DNA from: Aquificota bacterium
GTDB taxonomy: Bacteria; Aquificota; Aquificia; Aquificales; Aquificaceae
Assembly (NCBI GenBank): GCA_013154375.1
Contig: JAADCR010000013.1
Span: 1-61,814, forward strand
Reading direction: 5' to 3'
Length of the DNA stretch: 61,814 nt
Made by a program: the position numbers and the translations under genes. Positions within the stretch are counted from its first letter, which is position 1, and every line of letters begins with the position of its first letter. The notes below the pieces were generated by a model. The model saw only the letters and a program-made list of their open reading frames with translations, was not told where the DNA came from and searched no databases. Positions 24,981-56,126 of the stretch are shown here, one piece after another.

Positions 24981-25007
24981 AGGGTCTATTCTATAATTCT
25001 TAAGGCT
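24981..25007. promoter_or_regulatory. bidirectional promoter between trpB and dapF
   Basis: Only 27 bp separate the two start codons. Plus-strand TATAAT (24992-24997) ends 10 bases before the dapF ATG. Minus-strand TAGAAT (24988-24993) ends 7 bases before the trpB ATG. The two hexamers overlap by 2 bp in the palindromic core ATTCTATAAT. There is no room for a Shine-Dalgarno on the minus side. Confidence 0.55.
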
Positions 25008-25850
25008 ATGGAACTGTGGAAGCTCCAAGCCACGGGCAACGACTTTATCCTCGTCGACGACCGGCTCGACTGCTTTACGCGCTTCGCGCGTCAGTTGAAC
25101 CTCTCTAAAGAAGAGCTCGTAAGACGCGTCTGCGACCGCCACAGGGGCGTAGGCGCCGACGGCCTTATACTTATAAAGCCGCCTAAAGAGAGTAGCCACT
25201 GCTTTAGCTGGGAGTTTTACAACGCCGACGGCTCTACGGCCGAGATGTGCGGGAACGGTGCCCGCTGCGCCGCCCGGTTTGCCTACGAGAAGGGGCTGTG
25301 TGAGAGCGAGAGCTTTACCTTCGAGACGCTGGCCGGCCCCGTAGAGGTGCGCGTGCTCGACCGCGGTAGGCGCGTCCGCGTAAAGCTAACGCCCCTCTCC
25401 AAGCCCCGGAAGATTAAGCTGGAGCTTGAGGAGGGAGCCTTAGAAGGCGTCTTTATAACCGCGGGCGTGCCCCACTTCGTGGTAAAGGTTAAAGAGCTCG
25501 GGCGGCTGCCCGTGGTCCGCCTCGGGAGGGCGGTCAGGTTCCACCCGGCCTTCGAGCCTAAAGGCACTAACGTAAACTTCGTCGAGCCCGTAGGCGAGGA
25601 CGCGCTCCGCATAAGAACCTACGAGCGGGGCGTGGAGGGCGAGACGCTCGCCTGCGGCACCGGCGCCACGGCCTCGGCCGCGGTGGCCTACCTCGAGGGC
25701 TGGGTAAAAAAGAGGCCCGTCCGCGTGATTACGAGAAGCGGCGAGGAGATACTAGTGGAGTTTGACGACGAGCTTAAGGAGGTTTACCTTACCGGGCCCG
25801 TAAGGAAGGTCTTAACGGGCTCGCTTGAGGACGAAGCGGTCAAGTATTAA
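25008..25850 (+). CDS. dapF: diaminopimelate epimerase
   Basis: Cofactor-free racemase converting LL- to meso-diaminopimelate for lysine and cell wall. 280 residues. It starts [16 protein letters not shown] (family motif GNDF). The two catalytic cysteines are in MCGNGARC (first Cys of the pair) and [10 protein letters not shown]. Starts at ATG 25008 close to a TATAAT. Its 3' end overlaps lspA on the other strand by 39 bases. Confidence 0.97.
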
Positions 25851-26291
25851 ATAGAGGCCGCCGAGCGTTATAAACGCGTCCGCGAGGTTAAAGGCCGGCC
25901 AGTGGAGCTCCCGCCAGTGGAGGTGTATAAAGTCGCGCACCTCGCCGTAAAGCAGCCGGTCGTAAAAGTTACCCAGCGCCCCGCCGGCTATAAAGCCCAG
26001 CGCCGCGGCTTCCGGCAAGCTGCGCGCTTTTAGAGCAAAAGCCAAGGTTATGGGCACGGCCAGCAGGGGCGGGATTAGCAGCAGGGGCATCCGCTTCTCG
26101 TCGGGCAGCTCGGCAAGGAAGCCGAAAGCCACCCCCTTGTTCGTTATTAAGTAAAAGTAAAGAAAAGGGAGAGCCCTTACGGGCTCTTTAAAGAGCTCCT
26201 CGGCAAGCTCTTTAGTAACGAGGTCCAGCGTCAGGACCGTAAGGGCCGACGCGAGGTAGGTCAGAAGTAAGGCTTTAGTGCTTCTTGCCAT
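25812..26291 (-). CDS. lspA: lipoprotein signal peptidase (signal peptidase II)
   Basis: Inner-membrane aspartic protease that removes the signal peptide of prolipoproteins. 159 residues with four membrane segments. Motifs in order: ITNKGVAFGF, GGALGNFYDRL (catalytic Asp) and FNLADAFITLG (second catalytic Asp). It begins inside the end of purL (31-base overlap) and ends inside dapF. Lipoproteins it could process here are the OmpA-type protein at 35375 and perhaps the small protein at 5753. Confidence 0.96.
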   Translation of the reverse strand: MARSTKALLLTYLASALTVLTLDLVTKELAEELFKEPVRALPFLYFYLITNKGVAFGFLAELPDEKRMPLLLIPPLLAVPITLAFALKARSLPEAAALGFIAGGALGNFYDRLLYGEVRDFIHLHWRELHWPAFNLADAFITLGGLYLILDRFVLKRAR

Positions 26292-28489
26292 AAGCGCTTA
26301 AGCTCCTTTACCGGCTCGTTTAGCAGCTCCTCACCGTTGTAGTAAAGCTTAAAGACGGGCTCGGGCACCGTACGGCCCAGATACATCCAGCCCAGACCCG
26401 TAGACTCGACGAGCTCTTTAAAGCTCTCGCTCTTTTCCGGCAGCACGCCCGCCACCACGCGCGTAGGATTCTCGCTAAAAAGAAAGAAGTCGGGCCTCTC
26501 CTCGCGGTACAGCTCGAGCTCCGCTCCCAGCTCCTCGGGAAAGAGCATCTCCAGCAGCGCCACCGCCAGACCGCCCACCGAGACGTCGTGAAGCGCCACC
26601 ACGAGCTCCTGCCTTTTAAGCTCTAAAAGAAGCTCTATGAGCTTCCTCTCCTTCTCGAGGTCCACCTTAGGCGGCTCGCCCGCCACCTTGCCGTGCACCG
26701 TCTTGAGGTACTCACTCCCGGCCACCGAGGATGGGCTCTCGAGGTCGCCCACGAGGTACAGCTCCGCCTCGCCCTCGAGGTAGCCCGGCGTAGGGTCCTC
26801 GGCCTTCTCGAGCAGACCCACCGCCACGACCACGGGCGTGGGGTAGACGCTTCTCACCTCGCCGCCTTTAACCGTCTCGTTGTATAGCGAGACGTTACCG
26901 CTAACCACGGGCACGCCTAAAGCCTTACAGGCCTCGGCCATGCCCTCTACGGCCTTTACGAACTGCCACATAACCTCGGGCCGCTCGGGGTTACCGAAGT
27001 TCAGACAGTCCGTGAGCGCTAAAGGACGGGCGCCCACGCAGGCGAGGTTACGGCACGCCTCGGCCACCACGAGCTTGGCCCCCTCAAACGGGTCGAGGTA
27101 GACCATCCGGCCGTTACCCTCCGCGCTTACGGCTACGCCCTTCTCGGTTTTTACGCGCGGCTTTAAAGGCCACTTAAGCCTAAGAACCGCCGCGTCGAAG
27201 CCCGGGACCACCACCGTGTTGGTGCCCACCTGATAGTCGTACTGCTCGTAAACGACGGCCTTAGAGGCCACGTTGGGCGAGCTTAGCACCTTCCTGAGAA
27301 CCTCCTTAAGCGGCGGCTGAGGGAGCTCCTCTTGTTTAAAAGCCCTGAGCTCTTTAAGGTACTCGGGCTCGCGCACGGGCCGCTCGAGCACGGGCGCACC
27401 TTCTACTATAACCGAGACGGGGAGCTCCGCCACGGGCTTACCCGCGTAGTAGGCCCTAAAGTAGCCGTCGCCCGTAAGCCGGCCCACCACCTCGCCGTGC
27501 AGGTGCCAGAAGCGCGCTATCTTTTTAAGCTCCTCCACCTTGTCCTCTTCGGCCACCACGAGCATCCGCTCCTGACTCTCCGACAGGAGAATCTCGTAAG
27601 GCGTCATGCCCTCTTCCCGTAGAGGGACGCGCTCTAAAAAGAGCTCCACGCCCATGCCCGACTTGTGCGCCAGCTCCGAGGCCGCGCCCGCAAGCCCGGC
27701 CGCTCCTAAGTCCTGAAGACCCACCGCCAGATTACGCTCCACTATCTCGAGCACCGCCTCGAGGAGCTTCTTACCGAAGTACGGGTCGCCTATCTGGACG
27801 CTGGGGCGCTTCTCCTGCGCGTCCTCTCCGAACTCGCCCGAGGCCATAACCGCACCGTGAACGCCGTCCCTACCCGTAGCCGAGCCTATAAGAAAGAGCA
27901 CCTGACCCTCCGCCGTGCCGCGGGCCCGCATCATCCTGCCCGCGGGCAGCACGCCCAGACAGAAGGCGTTTACGAGGGGGTTCGTGTCGTAAGGCGCTTC
28001 GAAAAAGACCTCACCCGCCACCGTAGGCACGCCTATGCAGTTACCGTAAAAGCTTATCCCCTTTACCACGCCTTTAGAGATGCGCTTAGTTTCTCTATAA
28101 GACGGCTCGCCGAAGCGGAGGCTGTCGGCCAGCGCCACGGGACGGGCACCCATAGAAAGCACGTCTCTGATTATCCCGCCCACGCCCGTGGCCGCACCGT
28201 GAAACGGCTCTATGTACGACGGGTGGTTGTGGCTCTCGACCTTAAACGCCACCCAGACCTTCTCGTCGAGCTCCACCACGCCCGCGTTCTCCCCCGGGCC
28301 CTGAACCACCCACGGGGCTTTAGTCGGCAGCTTCTTAAGGTGGACCTTACTCGACTTGTACGAGCAGTGCTCGGACCAGAGGGCGCCTATTACGCCAAGC
28401 TCCACCTCGTTGGGCTCCCGGCCCAGAAGCTTTTTAAGCCGTTCGTACTCCTCGCGCGTCAGTCCGCACGCTTGCCACGCTTCACCCAT
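26261..28489 (-). CDS. purL: phosphoribosylformylglycinamidine synthase subunit PurL
   Basis: Small-type PurL (742 residues) that works with PurS and PurQ to make FGAM in purine synthesis. Motifs include ALWSEHCSYKSSK near the N-terminus, the ATP/metal region ESHNHPSYIEPFHGAATGVG, and DLGAAGLAGAASELA; the second half repeats the fold (CLNFGNPERPE, VSGNVSLYNE). Starts at ATG 28489 with TATAAA 7 bases upstream and no Shine-Dalgarno, divergent from a ParB-like gene. purM lies at 41337. Confidence 0.97.
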   Translation of the reverse strand: MGEAWQACGLTREEYERLKKLLGREPNEVELGVIGALWSEHCSYKSSKVHLKKLPTKAPWVVQGPGENAGVVELDEKVWVAFKVESHNHPSYIEPFHGAATGVGGIIRDVLSMGARPVALADSLRFGEPSYRETKRISKGVVKGISFYGNCIGVPTVAGEVFFEAPYDTNPLVNAFCLGVLPAGRMMRARGTAEGQVLFLIGSATGRDGVHGAVMASGEFGEDAQEKRPSVQIGDPYFGKKLLEAVLEIVERNLAVGLQDLGAAGLAGAASELAHKSGMGVELFLERVPLREEGMTPYEILLSESQERMLVVAEEDKVEELKKIARFWHLHGEVVGRLTGDGYFRAYYAGKPVAELPVSVIVEGAPVLERPVREPEYLKELRAFKQEELPQPPLKEVLRKVLSSPNVASKAVVYEQYDYQVGTNTVVVPGFDAAVLRLKWPLKPRVKTEKGVAVSAEGNGRMVYLDPFEGAKLVVAEACRNLACVGARPLALTDCLNFGNPERPEVMWQFVKAVEGMAEACKALGVPVVSGNVSLYNETVKGGEVRSVYPTPVVVAVGLLEKAEDPTPGYLEGEAELYLVGDLESPSSVAGSEYLKTVHGKVAGEPPKVDLEKERKLIELLLELKRQELVVALHDVSVGGLAVALLEMLFPEELGAELELYREERPDFFLFSENPTRVVAGVLPEKSESFKELVESTGLGWMYLGRTVPEPVFKLYYNGEELLNEPVKELKRLWQEALKPYF

Positions 28490-28511
28490 TTTAGTCTTTA
28501 TATTTAATACT
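28490..28511. promoter_or_regulatory. symmetric bidirectional promoter between purL and the ParB-like gene
   Basis: The two ATGs are 22 bp apart. Plus-strand TATATT (28499-28504) and minus-strand TATAAA (28497-28502) overlap by 4 bp, and each ends exactly 7 bases before its own start codon. No Shine-Dalgarno fits on either side. This is the clearest symmetric case in the window. Confidence 0.6.
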
Positions 28512-29291
28512 ATGCCGACGCTTAAAGAGCCCCTGAAGGGCTACGAGCTCCGCGTAGAGCTCCTGCCCGTGGACCGGATTAAGGTCCCTTCCTACCAGCG
28601 CGAGCTGTCCGAGACGCTGGTCCGCCGCCTTATGTCGAGCATAGAGAAGGTGGGCTTCGTCGAGCCCATACTCGTGGTCGAGGGAGAGGACGGGTACGAG
28701 GTGGTTAACGGCCAGCACCGTCTCCGGGCCGCGGAGATGCTCGGCATTAAAGAGCTGCCCGCGGTAATACTGCCCGAAGAGGCCCGCGACTTCGTCATAG
28801 CCCTGAACACCGAGAAAGCCCCTAACCTCAAGGACAAGGCTCACCAAGCTTACGAGCTTTTTACGCGCTATCTGGCCCAGAGCCCCGAGACGAACGAGGA
28901 AGAGCTCGCCCCCATGGTCGAAGAGCCTTACTTCCTGACGGTGGGCTTTATAACCGACTACTTCGGCGACAAGCGTTTTCCGGCTTACGCTTTTGAGAAG
29001 GTGCTTAAAAAGGTCGACGAGTTTCTGCCCTTGCCGCTCGAGCAGGCTCAGCAGGAGCGCATAAGGCGGGCCGAGCTGCTCCGAGAGGTCCGCGAGGTGC
29101 TCGACGAGCGGTACCGCGAGCTCGGGCTTACCAACGCTCTGCACAAAGAGGCGCTCGTAACCAAAGCCTTCCAGTCGGTCTACGGTAAGCGCGTAAGGAA
29201 AGTCGACGACGACTTTTACGGCGTCTTTACCAAGCTCAAAGAGGCTCTAAAGACCGTCTCGCTGACCGAAGAGGAGCTGGAAGAGTTCTAG
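28512..29291 (+). CDS. ParB N-terminal-like domain protein
   Basis: 259 residues with a ParB/sulfiredoxin-type domain at about 15-100: the strand VDRIKVPSYQRE, a helix with LVRRLMSSIEKVGFVEPILV, then the signature VNGQHRLRAAEMLGIKELPA. The rest is helical and charged and lacks the clear helix-turn-helix and dimer domain of chromosome-partition ParB. No parA is nearby. It may be a nucleotide- or DNA-binding regulator. ATG 28512 is set by the divergent promoter; an upstream extension runs antisense to purL. Confidence 0.75.
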   Translation: MPTLKEPLKGYELRVELLPVDRIKVPSYQRELSETLVRRLMSSIEKVGFVEPILVVEGEDGYEVVNGQHRLRAAEMLGIKELPAVILPEEARDFVIALNTEKAPNLKDKAHQAYELFTRYLAQSPETNEEELAPMVEEPYFLTVGFITDYFGDKRFPAYAFEKVLKKVDEFLPLPLEQAQQERIRRAELLREVREVLDERYRELGLTNALHKEALVTKAFQSVYGKRVRKVDDDFYGVFTKLKEALKTVSLTEEELEEF

Positions 29292-45704: not shown

Positions 45705-45725
45705 AGGGAGATATATTAAAACCTT
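45705..45725. promoter_or_regulatory. symmetric bidirectional promoter between plsY and ychF
   Basis: Plus-strand TATATT (45712-45717) and minus-strand TAATAT (45713-45718) overlap almost completely in the core TATATTA, and each ends 8 bases before its own ATG. No Shine-Dalgarno fits on either side. Confidence 0.55.
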
Positions 45726-56109: not shown

Positions 56110-56126
56110 GTTTAAATAATAATATC
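56110..56126. promoter_or_regulatory. 17-bp bidirectional promoter between acyP and an unknown gene
   Basis: Only 17 AT-rich bp separate two outward ATGs. Plus-strand TAAATA (56113-56118) ends 8 bases before its ATG; minus-strand TATTAT (56119-56124) ends 9 bases before the acyP ATG. No leader or Shine-Dalgarno is possible if transcription starts here. Confidence 0.5.

Follow-up and report, generated by a model that had tools for sequence, protein, structure and literature searches.

Can an intergenic spacer of 22 bp act as the promoter of both genes that diverge from it? This question is raised by a locus within 61,814 nt of contig sequence (the whole stretch that was analyzed, hereafter the window) from the genome of a heat-loving bacterium of the genus Aquifex (1.19 Mb, 58% GC). 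Here, the start codons of a ParB-like gene (ATG at 28512, + strand) and of purL (ATG at 28489, - strand) are separated by the sequence tttagtctttatatttaatact at 28490-28511, which is 86% A+T compared with a mean of 0.77 for the other compact spacers of the genome (Table 1). A preliminary description had reported two outward-facing ATGs 22 bp apart, with 7 bases between the end of each hexamer, TATATT (+) or TATAAA (-), and its own start. Both statements are correct: the distance is exact by sequence, the hexamers lie as described, and both starts match the N-termini of homologues (MGEAWQACGL vs. MERVWEAYGL and MEKVWELHGL; MPTLKEPLKG vs. MYTLKEPLKG and similar sequences). The spacer is probably a minimal bidirectional sigma-70-type promoter for two leaderless or nearly leaderless mRNAs, with the order of events proposed below.

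Table 1. Features of the purL/ParB-like locus, in coordinates of the window.
Feature	Position	Strand	Basis or remark
Proposed shared promoter core	28490..28511	none	Sequence and A+T comparison
-10-like box TATATT	28499..28504	+	7 nt upstream of the ParB-like start codon
TATAAA, final T missing	28497..28502	-	7 nt before the purL ATG; box of the preliminary description
TTAAAT, alternative purL -10 box	28502..28507	-	12 nt before the purL ATG; leader of ~5 nt
ParB_N-domain protein, 259 aa	28512..29291	+	PF02195, 39.9 bits (cut-off 26.3)
glyS, then pyruvate-phosphate-dikinase-like gene	downstream of the ParB-like gene; glyS from 29314		Names read from translations
purL, phosphoribosylformylglycinamidine synthase subunit	26261..28489	-	NF002290, 954.7 bits (cut-off 648)
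lspA, after purL on the same strand	25812-26291	-	

The two sides of the spacer differ in the quality of their candidate boxes. On the ParB side, TATATT reaches a score of 9.6 under the -10 model built from this genome, ranks 42nd among 284 divergent upstream regions and is the best -10 hit within 200 nt of the start; at 7 nt it also has the form and approximate position (TANNNT, ~7-12 nt before the start) expected of a leaderless, TA-led gene. A Shine-Dalgarno (SD)-like motif was sought before both genes and was found neither in tttatatttaatact (+) nor in aatataaagactaaa (-). The purL side contains no strict TANNNT at 5-12 nt and offers only TATAAA, TAAATA and TTAAAT. The first of these lacks the conserved final T (-7T), with a combined score of 5.0, and TTAAAT, the best purL hexamer once position is ignored (4.3 bits), has no A at -11. 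Four Aquifex relatives (G001, G002, G004 and G005) have an intact purL 5' end, and in each of them TAAAAT occupies the box position 12 nt before the ATG, where TTAAAT is found here. Since TATAAA is without its final T and lies off this conserved position, the purL mRNA may keep a leader of ~5 nt rather than zero; alternatively, TATAAA may have replaced TTAAAT as the purL box after the latter lost its -11 A. The proposal that both mRNAs are leaderless is thus best backed for the ParB-like gene, whose TATATT sits at the modal position without an SD, and is less certain for purL.

With TATAAA ranking only 207th of 284 and TTAAAT missing its -11 A, the purL-side boxes are weak enough to suggest a one-directional arrangement, in which the ParB-like gene alone would have a functional leaderless promoter and purL would be read weakly, or through an SD-less leader that begins within the ParB-like gene. 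This is nevertheless unlikely, given that there is no usable minus-strand -10 elsewhere within 200 nt and no SD, that near-start -10 boxes, present before purL in many Aquificaceae, are kept across the family, and that expression of purL is expected from its biosynthetic role. Across 28300-28700 no sigma-70 promoter-like hexamer pair was detected, and no other good -10 was found within 200 nt of either start.

The geometry of the spacer departs from the symmetric core that had been proposed. Only 10 of the 22 positions are self-complementary, and the boxes are offset by +2 for TATATT/TATAAA and by -3 for TATATT/TTAAAT, compared with -1 for a reciprocal register; the +2 offset also falls outside the common registers of the genome (-1 or +4). 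TATATT overlaps either purL candidate by 3-4 bp, and the predicted start-to-start distance is 23 bp if both mRNAs are leaderless or ~18 bp if purL has a 5-nt leader. Shuffling the same 22 letters places AT-rich hexamers starting with TA precisely 7 nt from each of the two starts in 2.5% of cases, and two-sided TANNNT at 5-12 nt in 26%. The latter frequency fits an AT-rich spacer devoid of promoter activity, with chance hexamers and both genes read from elsewhere. Such an inactive spacer is very improbable, as the ParB-side box scores well at the modal position of the genome and nothing else in the vicinity resembles a promoter. Still, the coincidence of two boxes at this single site is barely beyond chance and weak evidence alone, so that the evidence for the promoter reading comes from the genome-wide pattern.

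This pattern was assessed with 1057 genes called in 1.036 Mb of the assembly using a simple dicodon model that is blind to upstream sequence; the genome-wide counts rest on the starts from this simple caller, and the pair and box statistics cover the genome itself, a 400-kb sample of G001, and G010. Among the 284 genes with a divergent upstream neighbor, TANNNT peaks at 7, 8 and 9 nt before the start (17, 14 and 12%, respectively, vs. ~3% after shuffling), and a motif model recovers tTAwAAT-like boxes (T92 A93 ... T90) in ~84% of their upstream regions. An SD-like motif accompanies 1% of genes with a box at 6-10 nt but 51% of the rest, and ATG is the start codon in 93% and 80%, respectively. 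The combination of box, SD absence and ATG preference matches the leaderless-gene signature of Zheng et al. (2011; PMC3160421), who predicted leaderless genes for Aquificae at 20.7-32.4%, with A. aeolicus as an example. Judged from these upstream sequences, the commonest promoter among genes that face a divergent neighbor is a TANNNT box situated 7-9 nt ahead of the start codon.

Of the 142 divergent pairs in the genome, 60 are 12-30 bp apart. Among these compact pairs, 42 have TANNNT at 5-12 nt on both strands, compared with 11.2 +/- 3.0 after shuffling (maximum 19 in 300 trials). Two-sided leaderless starts, which the preliminary description considered unusual, therefore appear to be ordinary in this genome. 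The divergent gaps have a floor at 12 bp, with six pairs at 11 bp or less and 38 at 12-23 bp; 12 bp just accommodates one hexamer ending 7 nt before the ATG, provided that it borrows its first T from the opposite CAT. In G001, 10 of 15 compact pairs carry two-sided boxes, and five of eight testable compact pairs in the sample are still divergent neighbors. In G010, which belongs to another genus, leaderless signals are present, close pairs number only three and none of the three is conserved as divergent neighbors. For comparison, seven divergent pairs without an intervening RNA gene within 50 kb of E. coli K-12 sequence are ~90-240 bp apart according to the annotation. Convergent genes are also tightly packed at their 3' ends and mostly overlap, with a median gap of -14 bp and 144 of 169 pairs at 0 bp or less, as called by the same simple caller.

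The purL/ParB-like pair is typical of this genome in its layout and, ranking 44th among the 60 compact pairs by its weaker side, is a below-average example of its class. Three other compact divergent pairs with two-sided -10 boxes are found in the window, at 24981-25007 (trpB/dapF, 27 bp), 45705-45725 (21 bp) and 56110-56126 (17 bp), and all of them outrank it by the weaker side.

The abundance of two-sided boxes could also reflect pairs of independent promoters that lie close together only through genome compactness, with no functional sharing. The number of two-sided pairs at 12-30 bp (42) closely matches that expected from one-sided rates (41.6); hence, there is no sign of extra coupling, and sharing follows from closeness. 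The paired-box registers of -1 and +4 form real peaks, but with 20 of 44 pairs (45%) vs. 34 +/- 16% in shuffled sequences they are only modestly, and not clearly, above the shuffle. An apparent excess of 17-bp and 27-bp gaps was likewise set aside, as the numbers are too few. At the purL/ParB-like spacer, however, the boxes overlap within 22 bp and two polymerases cannot fit together, so that competition would be forced whatever the origin of the boxes, and two functionally separate promoters seem quite improbable. A shared AT core for two opposing, leaderless or nearly leaderless starts remains the best reading of the sequence and fits a class of ~40 pairs in the genome.

A further feature of this class concerns the -35 element. 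In an alignment of 95 leaderless divergent promoters on their -10 boxes, no TTGACA or TTGAAA was evident at spacings of 15-19, wide gaps included (5/6 matches in 1%, shuffled 2%). The alignment likewise shows no TG extension; an extended -10 (TG) was considered and rejected, as only 4-14% have one. As an internal control, among 11 tRNA promoters from this genome 4 have TTGAAA-like -35 boxes (Fisher p = 0.0003), leadered genes display a mild -35 excess (15% vs. 3%), and sigma region 4 is encoded in the genome. In several tRNA promoters, the TTGAAA-like box lies ~15-17 nt before TAAAAT or TATAAT (L134:11074-11130 (-), L139:12150-12210 (+), L147:2776-2830 (-) and L149:9117-9170 (-)). These comparisons, made on small samples with a simple consensus, support a reading of the leaderless divergent promoters as putative -10-only promoters. 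On balance, we lean towards the view that an AT core of 12-30 bp without a -35, in which two -10 boxes overlap and each give rise to a leaderless mRNA, is the default divergent promoter in this Aquifex lineage and, given the 12-bp floor between ATGs, approaches the lower size limit for a bidirectional promoter between two genes, and that promoters with longer leaders and those of tRNAs still use a -35.

Comparison with relatives provides clues to how the two genes came together. The ParB_N match spans residues 15-87 of the ParB-like protein, and the full canonical ParB/Spo0J family model is matched only below its threshold (TIGR00180, 35.8 bits; cut-off 58.45). By sequence, the protein is a member of a ParB-like family that is common in Aquificaceae, with relatives in 37 of 61 genomes, and not a canonical ParB. 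Genomes of the genus Aquifex that have the family contain one or two copies each; the ParB_N domain of the protein includes the motif NGQHRLRAA, and it shows weak similarity to SerK and Noc. In relatives, the ParB-like gene has either an SD-led start (G001, G003 and G006) or a near-start box (G004, perhaps G005). Its leaderless state is not conserved, since the gene has an SD and a leader in several relatives (loci L003, L006 and L007).

A conserved pairing of purL with the ParB-like gene was ruled out, as purL was adjacent in none of 29 loci surrounding the ParB-like gene in relatives. In G001, purL is instead divergent to a copy of rpsL, and by a partial match the same applies to G005; taken together with the 29 loci, this indicates that the purL/ParB-like junction is probably recent. 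G001 has two rpsL copies, one of them divergent to purL (L035, G001:C1 ~1,288,900-1,289,400). This latter copy starts with ATGCCGACG, the nine bases with which the ParB-like gene also begins. A leftover of rpsL at this position was considered and is treated as a coincidence, because codon 3 is Thr in some relatives of the ParB-like protein and the genome's own rpsL starts with ATGCCTACC. The 18 purL-proximal bases of the spacer match G005, G001 and G002 at 15, 14 and 14 positions, respectively (shuffle p <=0.0015), whereas the sequences next to the ATG of ParB-like genes in relatives show no comparable match to the spacer. For this reason, most of the spacer seems to be purL's own ancestral promoter, the other strand of which apparently serves the ParB-like gene.

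Both components of this arrangement have precedents. Bidirectional promoters with near-symmetric -10 elements, in which two divergent transcription start sites lie 7-25 bp apart, were reported by Warman et al. (2021; as described in PMC10268837). According to that description, the modal start-to-start distance is 18 bp, reciprocal pairing of -7T and -11A is the commonest, though not the only, arrangement, and the antisense RNA is often non-coding. Similar to these promoters, the opposed -10 elements at the Aquifex locus overlap in one AT core, with predicted starts at most 23 bp apart and hence within the 7-25 bp range. Unlike in the promoters described there, the register is +2, or -3 with TTAAAT, instead of the reciprocal -1, so that the -7T/-11A pairing is absent from this spacer, and both predicted RNAs are mRNAs that would start at or near the AUG. 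The other component corresponds to the TA-led genes of Aquificae, with a TAtaaT-like box ~10-12 bp before the start and no SD (Zheng et al., 2011; PMC3160421); such genes account for 28% of called genes here and 31% in 400 kb of G001, in line with the 20.7-32.4% given there for Aquificae. Divergent pairs and core sharing are not treated in that study. Set against these sources, the genome-wide class joins two features that are already known, namely leaderless genes and opposed -10 boxes that overlap. No paper on their combination was found in the open-access literature, which in itself is weak evidence.

The transcription starts, two-way activity, leaderless translation and evolutionary order that we infer can be assembled into one model. 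RNA polymerase would open the same AT core either way, guided by a -10 box alone and without a -35. On the + strand, TATATT would set the transcription start at the A of the ParB-like ATG or next to it, yielding a leaderless mRNA that may be read by 70S ribosomes or another form of leaderless initiation. The purL mRNA, with a leader of 0-5 nt, would arise on the - strand from a weaker box that overlaps TATATT, either TTAAAT at 12 nt or TATAAA at 7 nt. The ParB-like gene would have come to adjoin the old promoter of purL in this lineage, using its other strand.

The genome-wide habit is more interesting than this locus. If the combination is indeed the usual layout of divergent genes, it would reveal the size to which a bacterial promoter between two genes can shrink. 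Two further questions would become testable, namely whether housekeeping genes, purL among them, can be served at high temperature by -10-only promoters lacking a -35, and whether a neighbor can take over a gene's promoter via the opposite strand. The dozens of natural variants in one genome would represent a ready test set.
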